Part shown: in pieces, positions 1 through 41,089 of the stretch
Numbering within the stretch: the first letter of the stretch is position 1
How the letters are laid out: each line of letters starts with the position of its first letter
Origin: Defluviitaleaceae bacterium
Lineage (GTDB): Bacteria; Bacillota; Clostridia; Lachnospirales; WQUN01
Reading direction: 5' to 3'
Length of the DNA stretch: 64,000 nt
Assembly (NCBI GenBank): GCA_009785615.1
Contig: WQVX01000001.1
Coordinates: forward strand, 1 to 64,000
Program-made: the position numbers and the translations under genes
The notes under the pieces: generated by a model
What the model saw: the letters and a program-made list of their open reading frames with translations, nothing else
Told to the model about the DNA's origin: nothing
Databases searched by the model: none

Positions 1-612
1 ATGGCAAAGGCTATTGTTCTTGGCATTAATACTAAAGAAAATTGCATCCATTTTGTAAAAATTCGATTACAAGAACAAATGGAATATCAACAAAGAATAG
101 TAGAAAAATTTGGAGCCATTGGAGGCTTAATTGCCAAACTATCTTCAGATAATATGCAAATTTCAAAAGATACATTTGAGATAAATGACCGAATAGAATC
201 TGCTGTTGCCAGCAGCGGAGACATGCACCACTCTTTAGAAGAAGCACTTTTTGAATTTAAAAAGCTTGTATTTACTTATAAAGAGATTACTTCTATAGCC
301 CGTAAAACTAATATGTTGTCTATTAATGCAACAATAGAAGCTGCTCATGCAGGAAAATATGGCAGGGGTTTTGCAGTAGTTGCTACAGAAGTAGGAGATT
401 TAGCTCAAAAAAGTATGAATGCAGCTAAGAGAACACAGGATAATAGCGATGATATTTTTAAAGTACTGGATAAATTGACAGAAAAAGCTAACGGACTCAT
501 CAATCAGATAGAAGATATAAAAGACTTTACAACCGGAATAGTAAAACATGCAGATGATATTGCAAAGGAAACCGAAGAGATAGTGCAGTTGATAGAAGAT
601 ATTAAAGAATAA
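1..612 (+). CDS. methyl-accepting chemotaxis protein, C-terminal signalling part (probably truncated by window edge)
   Basis: The 203-residue product is an all-helical chemoreceptor signalling module. Residues about 95-140 hold the hairpin-tip signature seen in receptors that contact CheA and CheW ([24 protein letters not shown] is the family's most conserved stretch, here slightly divergent: SINATIEAA then GRGFAVVA). No membrane segment or ligand domain is present. The first ATG falls on base 1, so the true start probably lies upstream and this is the C-terminal part of a longer receptor; a short soluble receptor is the alternative. A strong terminator follows directly, so this is the end of its transcript. 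It would couple a sensor to the flagellar motor through CheA. Confidence 0.8.
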
Positions 613-5285: not shown

Positions 5286-7238
5286 TTATTTAAGCTGGCT
5301 TGGATGCTTGGTGAAAAAGTCTACTTTTGGCTCTAAAAATTTGAAGTTGTGGCCTGAGCTTAGGAAGAATGGCAAAGGCTCATTTATATAAGTCCATTCC
5401 CACAGGCGTTCATCTACACTAAGGAATTCGCGTACTCTTTCTGTACCTTCCGGTGCAAAGGGATGAAGCAATACAGCCGCTACCCTTACTATATGAAAAG
5501 CATCCACTAATGTCTGCGCTCTTAGGGATTCGCCGGATTCTCCGTCAGTGTCGGCTTTTTTTATTTGGGCTGACCAAGTTTTATTTGCATCGCGCAAATA
5601 TACGTCTAGCATATCTATGATTTTGGCAAGTTCAAAGCGATACATTGCCCATTCGTATTCTGAAATTATTTTATCTGCGGCTTGCTTAGTTTCAGCACTC
5701 ACTTCTACTGCCGGTAGTTTGCCATCGTAATATTTTTGCATAGTATAGAAACAGGAACGGATCAATCTGTTATAGACATTGGTTAGTATGTTCCCTTCTG
5801 CCAAAGTTGCGTCAAAGCCTTCTCCACCCATAATTGCTTGTGGCTTAAACGAAATACTGTTGCCGTGGAGTGCCATATGTGCAAAGTGCATACGTAACTG
5901 CTCTACGGTGTAATGATTTAAAAGCTCTTCTGCGCCAGGAGGTTTTACGTCTCCGCTGCTACTGGCCTTGCGATTGCCAAAATATAAATGGCGGTTGGGA
6001 ATTATTATTGGTAGGGCTTCTTGGACAGGACGGCCGGCGATCTCGTTAAGTGCCATAAAAAGCCCCATTGCTGCTACTGCATAGAAATAGATGTTATCTT
6101 CACCGATAAATTGATACACCCTTGTATCTTGATCAAACCACCATTTTTCCCAATCTTCGCCGGTACCTGTTGATTCTTTAAGATAAGCTTGAACAAACGC
6201 CATGGGTATCCACAAGGATTCCGGCCATACCCAGAAGGTTTGGTCAGTTATATCTTCCTTTTCGGGAACAGGTATGCCCCATTTTACATTTCCTGTTAAT
6301 CGGAAGGGAACAAGTGTAGTACCTGTGCGGAAGCGTATGCCATGTTCTCTTAGGATAGTGCAAGCCGCTTCACGGTCTTTTAGCACTTTAAAAGTTATGG
6401 TTGCTGACTTGTTTTCTTCGTTAACGTCTGCCTCGTGGGCCGGCATTTTTGACATAGCAGTGTGCAAATCTTCTAAATCCTCAGTTTTAATTAGGATGGC
6501 GGGATCTTTTAAAAAATCCGCTACATTAGTTAATAAAATTTTGCGGCTTATGCCCTCTTTTTCTAAAAGAGTTTGCCGTTCTTTTAAATCATCGCCAAAG
6601 CGTTCTAAGTCGAAATACCAGTTTTTAACGGCTTTTAGTGATGGCGTTTGGCCTGTGGTAACAATTTTAGGAGCGATCAACTCTCCGGGGCTATATTGAT
6701 GTCCTAGTTCACATTCATCAGCGTAGGCAGTATTAGATTTGCATTTTGCTATGGGGCATCGTCCCTCTACTTGCCTACCATTTAAGATAACTTGATTTTC
6801 TTCATCATAAAATTGTTCTACTTCTTCCAAGCGCAGATATCCGCTTTTGTACCATGCTTCAAACAATTGTGCAGACAGTTCATTTTGAATGCGCCCACCT
6901 TCATATAGTGCGGATGCACCATACAGATTAAGGCTGATATTATAATCATTCAGCACTTTCTTTTGGGCTTTGTGATTGCCTTCTACGAAGTCGGCAATGG
7001 TTCCGGAAAATCCGGCCTCTTTGATGGCCTGATATTTTACTTCTGGCCCTGCACCATAACAGTCTGTCCCCGAAATAAAAATTACATTACCTTTGCCTAT
7101 GCGGTCACGTAAAAATCGGGCGTATATATCTGCATGAATAAACAGTCCCCCGATATGACCCGAGTGCAGATGCTTGTCGCCGTAGGGCATACCGCCGGTG
7201 ACAACGGCTCTTTTAGGAAAGTGTGGTGATGAATTCAT
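5286..7238 (-). CDS. methionyl-tRNA synthetase-like class I tRNA ligase
   Basis: The 650-residue product has the Rossmann fold of class I tRNA ligases and is closest in layout to methionyl-tRNA synthetase, which attaches Met to its tRNA. Seen are GGMPYGDKHLHSGHIGG (HIGH-like, SGHIG), FISGTDCYG, a cysteine-bearing connective region (residues about 160-185), and GEDNIYFY. Two oddities: the KMSKS loop reads RKASSS, and the region before KWGIPVP carries an insertion of about 60 residues (DLEDLHTAMSKM onward). There is no C-terminal tRNA-binding domain. ATG 7238 is preferred, with GGAGG 8 bases upstream. It could be the cell's main MetRS of a divergent clade or a paralogue with another role. Confidence 0.8.
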   Translation of the reverse strand: MNSSPHFPKRAVVTGGMPYGDKHLHSGHIGGLFIHADIYARFLRDRIGKGNVIFISGTDCYGAGPEVKYQAIKEAGFSGTIADFVEGNHKAQKKVLNDYNISLNLYGASALYEGGRIQNELSAQLFEAWYKSGYLRLEEVEQFYDEENQVILNGRQVEGRCPIAKCKSNTAYADECELGHQYSPGELIAPKIVTTGQTPSLKAVKNWYFDLERFGDDLKERQTLLEKEGISRKILLTNVADFLKDPAILIKTEDLEDLHTAMSKMPAHEADVNEENKSATITFKVLKDREAACTILREHGIRFRTGTTLVPFRLTGNVKWGIPVPEKEDITDQTFWVWPESLWIPMAFVQAYLKESTGTGEDWEKWWFDQDTRVYQFIGEDNIYFYAVAAMGLFMALNEIAGRPVQEALPIIIPNRHLYFGNRKASSSGDVKPPGAEELLNHYTVEQLRMHFAHMALHGNSISFKPQAIMGGEGFDATLAEGNILTNVYNRLIRSCFYTMQKYYDGKLPAVEVSAETKQAADKIISEYEWAMYRFELAKIIDMLDVYLRDANKTWSAQIKKADTDGESGESLRAQTLVDAFHIVRVAAVLLHPFAPEGTERVREFLSVDERLWEWTYINEPLPFFLSSGHNFKFLEPKVDFFTKHPSQLK

Positions 7239-7310
7239 TTGGTTTACCTCCAAGTGTATGTTAGTGTATTATAAAAGGGCTATATCCCTGAATTTCCAAA
7301 ATTTTATATA

Positions 7311-7419
7311 AAAAAGTACTACAACTTCCGAAAGGTTGTCGTTCAAAACACCAATCGGCGTTCGTAGGGGATGGGTTAAAACATCACCTGCAAACACAGA
7401 AATCTCTGCCGCTGTAGCA
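7311..7419 (-). ncRNA. small RNA candidate A (or leader RNA of the downstream synthetase gene)
   Basis: A compact minus-strand unit of about 109 bases lies between a strong promoter (7426-7454) and a hairpin with T run (7321-7339, then TTTTTT at 7316-7311). Its first bases form a stem CTACA/TGCAG around an inner stem CAGA/TCTG with the internal loop GCG opposite GTT. Next comes GGTGATGT (7388-7381) and ATCCCCT, which can pair imperfectly. The same parts recur in candidate B, the first also at 41.05 kb and the second also in C. No T-box sequence is present although a synthetase gene follows; readthrough into that gene remains possible. Confidence 0.6.
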
Positions 7420-7425
7420 AAAAAT

Positions 7426-7454
7426 AGTATAGCCTAACTTTCCCTTTTTTTCAA
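7426..7454 (-). promoter_or_regulatory. sigma-A promoter of RNA candidate A
   Basis: TTGAAA (7454-7449), 17-base spacer and TATACT (7431-7426) on the minus strand. The motif CTACAGCG begins exactly 8 bases after the -10 box. Confidence 0.8.
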
Positions 7455-14752: not shown

Positions 14753-15790
14753 TCAAAACTGTGTCAAAAATTGCATGTCATTTTCATAAAGCAAGCGCAT
14801 ATCAGTTATCCCATACCGTTGCATAACAATACGGTCTATTCCCATTCCAAAAGCATAGCCGGAATAACGATTAGGGTCTATATTGCAGTTAGACAAAACC
14901 TTTGGATGAACCATACCACAACCAAGAAGTTCTACCCAACCGGTACCTTTGCAGACATAGCACGGTGCATCTTTTTCTTGACCTCCGCAAGCAAAGCATT
15001 GGACGTCCATCTCAGCACTAGGCTCTGTAAAAGGAAAAAAGCTTGGGCGGAACCTGACTTGTATATCTTCTCCTAAAATACGTTGAGCAAAAAGAGTTAA
15101 TATCCCTTTTAAATCTGCCATAGTGACATCTTCATCTACTACTAAGCCTTCCAGTTGGTGAAAAACAGGCGCATGAGTAGCATCCCAGTCATCAGAACGA
15201 TATACAGAACCCGGTGCAATAATCCGAATGGGCGGGGAAGCTTGTTCCATAACTCTAACCTGCACTCCGGAAGTTTGAGTGCGAAGTACAAAGCCGCCTT
15301 CTGTGTAGAAAGTATCTTGCTCATCTTTAACAGGATGGTTGGCCGGGATATTAAGTGCTTCAAAGTTATAGTAATCCGTTTCTATCTCGGGGCCATCGGC
15401 AACAGTAAAGCCCATACCTATAAAAAGTTCTGTCATTTCTTGTAAAACTAAAGTAAGCGGGTGAAGGTGTCCTAATGAAGAGGAACGACCGGGCAAGGTT
15501 ACATCAATTTTCTCTTTTTTAAGAGCTTCTTCAACTTGCTTGCGTCCTAGTTTTTTGCGTACTTCTTCTATGCGGCTTTCTGCTAAAATTCGTAGTTCAT
15601 TTATTTGTTGGCCTGCGACAGGACGTTCTTCCGGAGGAAGGGAACCCAAAGATTTTAATAATAAAGTAATTTCTCCTTTGCGACCCAGTAATTTAACCCT
15701 TAATTCCTCTAAGGCGGCGGAAGTGTCCGGTTCATTAATTTGTTGCTCTATGGTTTCCCGTATTTTATTGATATCACTAATATTTTGCAT
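14753..15790 (-). CDS. pheS: phenylalanine-tRNA ligase alpha subunit
   Basis: The 345-residue catalytic subunit attaches phenylalanine to its tRNA. An N-terminal coiled coil (residues 1-85) precedes the class II core with motif 2 (FRPSFFPFTEPSAEMDV) and motif 3 (GMGIDRIVM). The ATG at 15790 is chosen because GGAAGGAG lies 5 bases before it; the upstream ATG codons lack a site. It heads an operon pheS-pheT-protease homologue-scpA-scpB. Expression starts at its own promoter; I found no T-box sequence in front of it. Confidence 0.96.
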   Translation of the reverse strand: MQNISDINKIRETIEQQINEPDTSAALEELRVKLLGRKGEITLLLKSLGSLPPEERPVAGQQINELRILAESRIEEVRKKLGRKQVEEALKKEKIDVTLPGRSSSLGHLHPLTLVLQEMTELFIGMGFTVADGPEIETDYYNFEALNIPANHPVKDEQDTFYTEGGFVLRTQTSGVQVRVMEQASPPIRIIAPGSVYRSDDWDATHAPVFHQLEGLVVDEDVTMADLKGILTLFAQRILGEDIQVRFRPSFFPFTEPSAEMDVQCFACGGQEKDAPCYVCKGTGWVELLGCGMVHPKVLSNCNIDPNRYSGYAFGMGIDRIVMQRYGITDMRLLYENDMQFLTQF

Positions 15791-15822
15791 GGTTACTCCT
15801 TCCATATTGTACAAATTAATTC

Positions 15823-15958: not shown

Positions 15959-16071
15959 TAAATGGTGATTGACCTCCGGCGTGGAGGTATTACATATTAA
16001 GTTGTGTTGGTTCATTTTAGGTCATAGGCAACACCATATCCTTTCAAAAAAGACATAAAAAATTTAGATAC

Positions 16072-16156
16072 AAAAAAGGCGTGAGGGGACTCGACTAAAC
16101 AACTGTCTACATCACCTACACGCCCGAAATATCAATAACACTTCAATATATTCAAA
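16072..16156 (-). ncRNA. small RNA candidate C
   Basis: A minus-strand unit of about 85 bases with a -10 box TATAGT (16168-16163) but a poor -35 box. Its 3' half is a terminator hairpin, GGCGTG (16124-16119) with CACGCC (16083-16078), followed by TTTTTT. Inside the stem it carries AGGTGATGT (16117-16109) and TCCCCT, the same pair of motifs seen in candidates A and B. The 5' motif CTACAGCG is absent. Confidence 0.45.
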
Positions 16157-16248: not shown

Positions 16249-16277
16249 TTGCAAAAAAGGCAAAACTAAGTTATACT
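16249..16277 (+). promoter_or_regulatory. sigma-A promoter of RNA candidate B
   Basis: TTGCAA (16249-16254), 17-base spacer, TATACT (16272-16277). CTACAGCG begins exactly 8 bases after the -10 box. Confidence 0.8.
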
Positions 16278-16283
16278 GTTGCC

Positions 16284-16388
16284 TACTACAGCGACAGATA
16301 TTCTGTGTTTGCAGGGTGATGTATGTGAACATCCCCTCATGCGTCGGTTGTTGCCGTTGCGAGGCACAACCGAACGTTGTATTTATTG
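16284..16388 (+). ncRNA. small RNA candidate B
   Basis: A plus-strand unit of about 105 bases. It begins with the stem-loop CTACAGCGACAGA - TAT - TCTGTGTTTGCAG (outer stem 5 bp, internal loop GCG/GTT, inner stem 5 bp), continues with GGGTGATGT...ACATCCCCTC (16314-16338), and ends with a stem CGGTTG-TTGCC/GGCA-CAACCG (16345-16372) and a loose T-rich stretch. A stronger terminator lies at 16461-16490, so the RNA may be longer. There is no open reading frame with a ribosome site. Function unknown. Confidence 0.6.
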
Positions 16389-16460
16389 GTATTAACTTTA
16401 TTACTTGCCCATTATACCCCTATTTCATAATTTTGGCAATGGATTAAAAAAATTTTTAAA

Positions 16461-16490
16461 GCGATGCAGAAAAATCTGTATCGCTTTTTT
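16461..16490 (+). terminator. intrinsic terminator
   Basis: GCGATGCAGA and TCTGTATCGC pair across an AAAA loop (one bulge), followed by six Ts. It could end RNA candidate B. Confidence 0.85.
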
Positions 16491-38650: not shown

Positions 38651-39817
38651 CTATTGTAAAATCCCTACAGATTGCAAATAAGTGATAAATTCTTGTATTT
38701 GAGCGATAAGTTGCATTTCAAGTTCTGCTCTTGCTTCTGCTTTTTCGTTGGCAGTTGCGACAGGGCGGGGTTCAGATTCATGGCCTGACCAATGCCAATT
38801 AAGAGCCGACCAACCCTCTAACCAAGCAGGTTGCATTGCAGGAGTTCTAAAGATACCCACTGAAATATCGGTTTGCTGTGCAAATCCTTCAGTAAGCCGT
38901 TCCATAAATGTAGGTTCGGGAGGGTATACCGGCATCATTAACATGTTTGGCTGCCAGGCCCTCCAATCTATTTGAACAATAGCAACGCCCTTTTCTTCAT
39001 CAAATAAGTTAAGTCCAACATTTAGTGCAGTATATTCAGGAGGAGTTGTATCAAAATTAAGCCCTGCGGATTCCAATTGCCTACGGATAATATTCAATGC
39101 TTCTTGTTCTGTAAGATGAACAAGATAAAAAGGAGAACCGGCTCCACCGTGGTGCAACCTTACATCCAAGTCAAAATCACTGTATCCGTGATATTCGGGA
39201 TATTCCACATATCCACCATCTGTTGTTATTACAACTGTCCCGGTTGCCTCATCCCATTCAACATTTGCGCCGCTGTTTTCGGCAACAAATCTTATAGGAA
39301 CCAACGTCCTGCCATTATGAAGCAGTGCCGGGGCGTCAAGTTCTACGGCGTCGGCATTAACAAAAGCGGTTAATCCATCAATAGGAAGTGCTATTCTAAG
39401 ATTTTCGCCTATTCCAATTGCCGTTCCGGTATCCTCGTCCCATTCAACAGTCATTCCCAGTGCTTCAAATATTGCACGAAACGGAACCATTGTCCTGTCA
39501 TTTATAATTACCGGTGCAACATCAAATTCAATAGGCATTCCATTTAGAATAACACTAATGTCGTTACTATATCTGCTATATCCACTTTGCCCATTATATT
39601 CATTAGAATATTCAGCAAAGGAATATGAATATCCTGAAAATATCATGCTTCCCATAAGTCCTATACTTGCAATAACCTTTGCGTTTTTTTGCCATCTTGA
39701 CGGCAATTTTTTTAATAATACAGGATTATTGCGAGCGTCCCCAAAAGTCGGAATCTGTGGGGCTTCATAGCTTTCGACCGGACTCATGCATATTAAGTCT
39801 TTGTTATCAGTTTCCAT
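38651..39817 (-). CDS. secreted/membrane-anchored protein with copper amine oxidase N-terminal (stalk) domain
   Basis: The 388-residue protein has a 40-residue cytosolic head (LICMSPVESYEAPQIPTFGD, then NPVLLKKLPSRWQKNAK), one hydrophobic segment (about 44-62), a Tyr/Ser/Asn/Gly-rich linker, a stalk domain built of two repeats (VPFRAIFEALGMTVEWDEDTG; VPIRFVAENSGANVEWDEATG), and a C-terminal region with LHHGGAGSPFYLVHLTEQEAL. GGAGG 5 bases before ATG 39817 sets the start. The head before the membrane segment is odd for a secreted protein and could be recognised by the radical SAM enzyme encoded next. Confidence 0.8.
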   Translation of the reverse strand: METDNKDLICMSPVESYEAPQIPTFGDARNNPVLLKKLPSRWQKNAKVIASIGLMGSMIFSGYSYSFAEYSNEYNGQSGYSRYSNDISVILNGMPIEFDVAPVIINDRTMVPFRAIFEALGMTVEWDEDTGTAIGIGENLRIALPIDGLTAFVNADAVELDAPALLHNGRTLVPIRFVAENSGANVEWDEATGTVVITTDGGYVEYPEYHGYSDFDLDVRLHHGGAGSPFYLVHLTEQEALNIIRRQLESAGLNFDTTPPEYTALNVGLNLFDEEKGVAIVQIDWRAWQPNMLMMPVYPPEPTFMERLTEGFAQQTDISVGIFRTPAMQPAWLEGWSALNWHWSGHESEPRPVATANEKAEARAELEMQLIAQIQEFITYLQSVGILQ

Positions 39818-39843
39818 AAAAACCTCCATTTTTACCAATTTAG

Positions 39844-41026: not shown

Positions 41027-41089
41027 CAAACACCGGAAGCCTGTCGCTGTAGCAATAGGTATTATACTCTGTTTCTGCTTGTAATACAA
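41027..41089 (-). promoter_or_regulatory. promoter and 5'-terminal stem-loop of the AI-2E transporter transcript
   Basis: TTGTAT (41089-41084), 17 bases, TATAAT (41066-41061). Eight bases later the RNA reads CTACAGCGACAGG - CTT - CCGGTGTTTG (41052-41027), matching the start of RNA candidates A and B. The closing inner pair is G-C here where B has A-U, a compensatory change. Confidence 0.7.

Follow-up and report, generated by a model that had tools for sequence, protein, structure and literature searches.

The window analysed here, a stretch of 64,000 nt from a Defluviitaleaceae bacterium, contains three sites (7454–7419 on the minus strand, 16249–16315 on the plus strand and 41089–41027 on the minus strand) at which a sigma-A-like promoter with a 17-nt spacer is followed by one recurring element. 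As had been noticed in a sequence-only reading of this DNA, the distance from the −10 box to CTACAGCG is exactly 8 nt at all three sites, and a 5-bp hairpin and GTGTTTG come next. Judged from sequence and predicted folds, the copies starting at 16286 (plus) and 7417 (minus) are complete, and the copy at 41 kb is a degenerate remnant. The features are listed below, where R1 and R2 stand for the first and second covariance models, built from 30 and 73 copies, respectively.

16249–16277, plus: putative promoter of the small RNA of the intact copy (TTGCAA-17-TATACT)
16286–16382, plus: intact predicted four-way-junction RNA (R1 87.2 bits, R2 70.6 bits), which folds alone to the junction
Parts of the intact copy, plus: P1 5′ strand 16286–16293; H1 16294–16306; H2 16307–16342; H3 16343–16374; P1 3′ strand 16375–16382
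16411–16439, minus: putative opposing promoter of the intact copy, reading back across the RNA (TTGCCA-17-TATAAT)
16071–16124, minus: candidate terminator/attenuator hairpin (47 nt, 16078–16124) with T-run, belonging to the opposing transcript
14753–15814, minus: phenylalanyl-tRNA synthetase alpha-like (pheS-like) gene, assigned by eye, downstream of the attenuator; the linkage is positional only
16461–16490, plus: hairpin with T-run in the sequence that could end read-through of the small RNA
7426–7454, minus: putative promoter of the second complete copy (TTGAAA-17-TATACT)
7319–7417, minus: second complete four-way-junction RNA, divergent, by score (R1 76.3 bits, R2 72.9 bits) and predicted fold
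5286–7253, minus: methionyl-tRNA synthetase-like (metG-like) open reading frame (ORF), after the second copy and in the same direction
41061–41089, minus: putative promoter of the decayed copy (TTGTAT-17-TATAAT)
41027–41052, minus: decayed 5′ remnant with the P1 5′ strand, H1 with one broken pair and the start of H2

The left attenuator is absent from the copy at 7319–7417, and no 3′ closing strand of P1 was found within 260 nt of the copy at 41 kb. The promoter of the latter apparently now serves an AI-2E transporter gene (PF01594). Similarly, promoter remnants with little or no RNA left lie just upstream of ORFs at three other loci of the genome (L042, L043 and L044 on contigs C48, C17 and C111), and it looks as if the genes at these loci and at 41027–41089 had captured the promoter of the element. 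Downstream of the AI-2E gene, 38651–39838 (minus) encodes a secreted-looking protein which by eye resembles copper amine oxidase N-terminal domains; this domain is also a frequent target in related genomes.

The recurrence of the core pattern is far beyond chance, with 28 occurrences of CTACAGCG-N10..25-GTGTTTG in the 3.29-Mb home genome against 0 for the reversed pattern. The covariance-model search recommended in the sequence-only reading yielded many promoter-anchored matches with covariation. To the 28 occurrences in the home genome, DNA queries with full-length copies added further whole, partial and decayed copies, which fall into two main sequence groups, and about 40 copies were recognised by covariance model (41 matches with R2). 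Of 38 genomes of the same family, R1 detected the RNA in 20 and R2 gave multi-copy matches in 22, with up to 23 per genome outside the home genome; in 257 genomes of the order outside the family R2 had no match. A class-wide sample added four genomes from three other families, with 2–3 copies each. The sole outside match to the exact pattern in the GTDB collection is on one Campylobacterota contig and was taken as chance. Scans of viral contigs for the element gave no match, and a viral or mobile origin was dropped on that account. Several details of the surroundings were recorded as well. A second dispersed palindromic repeat (CCGGTGACAAAATGAGACCGG) is frequent beside the element (flanks of L012, L016, L017, L043 and L046), a SECIS_4 element (Rfam, 63.6 bits) lies near one copy (L053, 871–908), and at L047 (C98:7567–7607) the left terminator arm abuts the right-hand terminator as the result of an internal deletion.

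Alignment of the copies revealed a closing stem, P1, whose 5′ strand is CTACAGCG and whose 3′ strand, CGCTGTAG or CGTTGTAG, follows about 90 nt later. P1 encloses three hairpins with almost no unpaired nucleotides: H1, which is the hairpin of the sequence-only reading, H2, with the base GTTTG/CAAGC, and H3. The element is thus predicted to be a cloverleaf-shaped, four-way-junction small RNA of about 95 nt. The constant ‘GCG/GTT internal loop’ proposed earlier is not a loop, since GCG is the inner end of the closing stem and GTT belongs to GTTTG at the base of the second hairpin. The earlier remark that the inner stem of H1 mostly stays paired holds for the swap between G-C and A-U, which is real covariation (17 G-C and 10 A-U among 30 copies), and fails at 41 kb, where ACAGG/CCGGT contains an A.G mismatch.

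Covariation is decisive for an RNA structure. In the alignment of 73 sequences 95.7% of the cells pair, and 18 of the 23 pairs change on both sides, with 259 such cells where shuffles give 55 ± 6. Because the sequences had been aligned to fit the structure, folds of single sequences and a strand test matter. When folded singly, 59 of 60 RNAs from relatives form P1 with at least six pairs. With the pairs in which G.U is commonest left out, wobble-type cells comprise 125 G.U and 11 A.C, an excess which indicates that the folded RNA is the strand downstream of the first promoter. The two-sided changes therefore support the earlier suggestion that an RNA structure at a transcript's 5′ end is under selection. 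What had been taken for a short stem-loop at the start of mRNAs is, by this fold, the first arm of the larger small RNA. The other option considered at that time, a DNA operator at +1, would predict conserved sequence without compensation of pairing; the pairs covary, the wobbles are strand-specific, and an operator is disfavoured. That the hairpin sits at the transcription start fits either of these original readings, a short mRNA leader hairpin or an operator, but both are contradicted by its place as one arm of a larger conserved RNA and by the strand-specific wobble pairs, and we regard them as highly improbable.

At the gathering score, no family of Rfam 15 matches the RNA, and tRNA was the only match in the 64-kb window, in line with the earlier statement that no described family has this form. 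T-box, 6S and plasmid antisense RNAs were ruled out as its identity by the absence of an Rfam match. The cloverleaf RNA appears to be undescribed; the literature on this theme was reached thinly, and an earlier description elsewhere is possible. A bridge-RNA or guide-RNA function was also considered and abandoned, as the loops belong to a closed hairpin and are accounted for by the opposing strand.

The promoters and terminators of the unit were identified by motif, and its transcripts are predicted. In 79 of 85 copies the spacer of the small-RNA promoter measures 17 nt, and in 76 of the 85 the −10 box ends 6–8 nt before P1. After P1, 46 of 60 relatives have a T-run, compared with 19 of 240 control windows, as do all 9 copies of the four genomes from other families. 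On the opposite strand, 64 of 85 copies have a promoter motif (TTGN3-16..18-TAN3T) 8–78 nt past the RNA, typically at about 15–60 nt, whereas control windows have it in 3–10 of about 83. A terminator hairpin is present in 66 of 85, located 100–200 nt before the RNA and, as seen from the RNA, past the small-RNA promoter; the controls gave 3 of 85 (other strand) and 29 of 470 (windows). With this placement, the opposing transcript would run antisense through the entire RNA before it reached the terminator. Four loci in two genomes of other orders (G309 and G486) have no recognisable terminator, and the mechanism may differ there.

The 5′ arm of this terminator repeats the 5′ arm of H2. The shared sequence is GGTGATGTA in the hairpin at 16071–16124, TGCAGGTGATGT in group A of the home genome, GTAGGTGATG in many relatives and GAAGGCGATG in genome G015, and in another order the identity between the arms is kept with a changed sequence (TGTGGG..CCTGCAT, genome G400). 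The opposing transcript consequently carries an anti-H2 segment complementary to its own terminator, so that the antisense leader can form either a terminator or an antiterminator. A helix between anti-H2 and terminator with a score of at least 8 occurs at 88% of 75 loci, compared with 11% for shuffled terminators and 7% for anti-H3. In equilibrium energies of the leader, forbidding the terminator costs a mean of 5.2 kcal/mol, and with shuffled anti-H2 the cost rises to 12.5 kcal/mol (59 of 62 loci, p = 1e-11); for the hairpin at 16071–16124 the corresponding values are 0.8 and 7.3 kcal/mol. As a rule the minimum-energy fold still contains the terminator, and antitermination would therefore have to be kinetic.

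We think it reasonably probable that the element is a dispersed antisense attenuator module, each copy of which is a private switch over read-through on the opposite strand. The opposing transcript would be an mRNA leader able to fold in two ways. In the leader alone, anti-H2 would pair with the terminator arms and transcription would read through; once paired with the leader, the small RNA would take up anti-H2, the terminator would form and transcription would stop. Both this mechanism and the expression of the unit are inferred from motifs and predicted folds.

The likeness of the two hairpins also allows a different explanation, namely that H2 and the terminator hairpin are both binding sites of a single RNA-binding protein and that anti-H2 pairs with the terminator only incidentally. 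In relatives, a bulged-U arm (GUAGG-U-GAUG) is indeed common to both hairpins. Group B copies, however, differ between the hairpins and yet keep the pairing through G.U, a random apical loop is the reverse of a typical binding hairpin, and the opposing promoter is left unexplained. We consider such a protein rather unlikely to be the answer.

The apical loop of H2 bears on the antisense attenuator from another side. Among close copies of the home genome it shows 0.52–0.70 differences per site, which is near random, while the same units have about 0.04 in the 5′ arm of H2 and 0.14–0.21 in the spacer. H2 loops are distinct in 26 of 26 home copies and in 84 of 86 copies overall. That the loop has diverged more than the spacer suggests diversifying selection, as would arise if an RNA had to pair with no leader but that of its own copy, and the hypervariable loop is probably a pairing code. 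Pairing between RNA and leader would begin at the near-random loops of H2 and H3, and these loops would hold each RNA to its own partner. Tentatively, the reading may be extended to the chromosome: dozens of copies of one attenuator, with loops diversified under selection and each recognising only its own leader, may act as barcoded, independent RNA switches that move between genes for surface proteins, flagellin, AbrB-like regulators and toxins. We offer this as a real possibility rather than an expectation.

Gene calls around the copies were heuristic. By these calls, 44 of 60 loci in relatives have, after the attenuator, a gene that runs in the leader direction and carries a Shine-Dalgarno sequence. 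In the home genome only 5 of 22 assessable copies have a codirectional gene, 11 copies facing a convergent one; many home copies may thus be orphans. A miniature mobile element, with a structured RNA serving its own spread and an incidental linkage to genes, would account for the home units of about 400 bp, which are about 90% identical, have unrelated flanks, often lack a target gene and decay into remnants. Neither a transposase-bearing version nor a target duplication was recognised, though, and the frequent codirectional genes in relatives, together with covariation and switch complementarity kept over long divergence, speak against spread as the whole account, which we judge improbable. 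Mobility and regulation can coexist.

Genes for AbrB-like proteins lie downstream in genomes G015, G052 and G007, a gene for an SLH (S-layer) protein in G376, and flagellin, Cu_amine_oxidN1, RCC1, lipoproteins, DUF6809 and HTH are further downstream families in relatives. Secreted-looking products were predicted for 18 of 49 downstream genes and 10 of 54 control ORFs. In G486, two copies stand upstream of a SymE gene (PF08845, E 2.5e-11), which is followed by a serine recombinase-like gene (L120 and L126), and the module is possibly part of an integrative element. Small ORFs were seen at other loci. In G400 (L123, L124 and L128) a conserved 22-aa ORF (MIK..CIQLAGQGGIGYVRFF) after the attenuator overlaps a 60-aa ORF with a single membrane segment. 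In G376 (L127), the opposing strand has, about 230 nt left of the RNA, a 48-aa ORF that resembles a type I toxin in its membrane segment and basic tail. In home group A (L011, L013, L020, L021 and L033), a conserved stretch to the left of the attenuator has a strong Shine-Dalgarno sequence and a tiny ORF (GGAGGTGAGTCCAATGACTTGA) that may encode a leader peptide.

Could the unit instead be a type I toxin-antitoxin system, with the four-way-junction RNA as the antitoxin and the toxin encoded by the opposing transcript? The antisense geometry and the multi-copy occurrence agree with it, as do the SymE gene behind two copies of G486 and the small ORFs with membrane segment and basic tail in G400 (60 aa) and G376 (48 aa). 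The home genome, on the other hand, has no conserved small ORF on the opposing strand, and downstream genes in the home family are mainly AbrB-like, flagellin, Cu_amine_oxidN1, lipoprotein and RCC1. A hydrophobic 22-aa ORF on the opposing strand of group B was rejected as a toxin peptide of the home genome, being frameshifted in sister copies and not conserved. A toxin-antitoxin role seems to us rather unlikely.

Attenuation of transcription by antisense RNA is known chiefly in plasmids. Dozens of copies per genome in a chromosomal family, with links to surface proteins, flagellin, AbrB-like regulators and SymE toxins, would amount to a new level at which these bacteria control their genes, and would supply a natural collection of RNA switches that work independently of one another. 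Its hypervariable loops make the evolution of antisense specificity testable in a setting where copies must not cross-react.

Among known systems, the bcr repeats of the Bacillus cereus group are multi-copy, dispersed, structured and partly mobile intergenic repeats. The present element resembles them in being dispersed, structured and perhaps partly mobile, but differs in its paired promoters, its attenuator and the covariation of its pairs across many genera. The switch logic proposed here is that of the countertranscript-driven transcriptional attenuators of plasmids pT181 and pIP501. With them the element shares an antisense RNA opposite a leader (here deduced from promoter motifs at fixed places on both strands), a terminator hairpin between the antisense region and the gene, an antisense-covered pre-emptor complementary to the 5′ arm of the terminator, and a leader of about 300 nt (PMC5703833). 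In contrast to these plasmid systems, the element is chromosomal, with up to about 40 dispersed copies per genome and various targets; AbrB-like, surface and other proteins take the place of a controlled rep gene (replication initiator), and its RNA is a predicted four-way junction with no match to the plasmid antisense RNA families in Rfam. SymE of E. coli is a type I toxin of the AbrB fold, and SymR, whose promoter is inside symE, acts mainly on translation (PMC1891008). The pair is like the element in combining a cis antisense RNA with an AbrB-fold protein, as copies stand upstream of SymE in G486 and of AbrB-like genes in G015, G052 and G007, whereas in the element the antisense region is part of the upstream leader and a terminator usually stands between it and the gene. 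In ColE1-type systems, which govern plasmid primer formation, the interaction of the sense and antisense RNAs is specific and each system is private (PMC9458437). This is a parallel to the private pairs proposed for the element, whose diversity lies within one chromosome.
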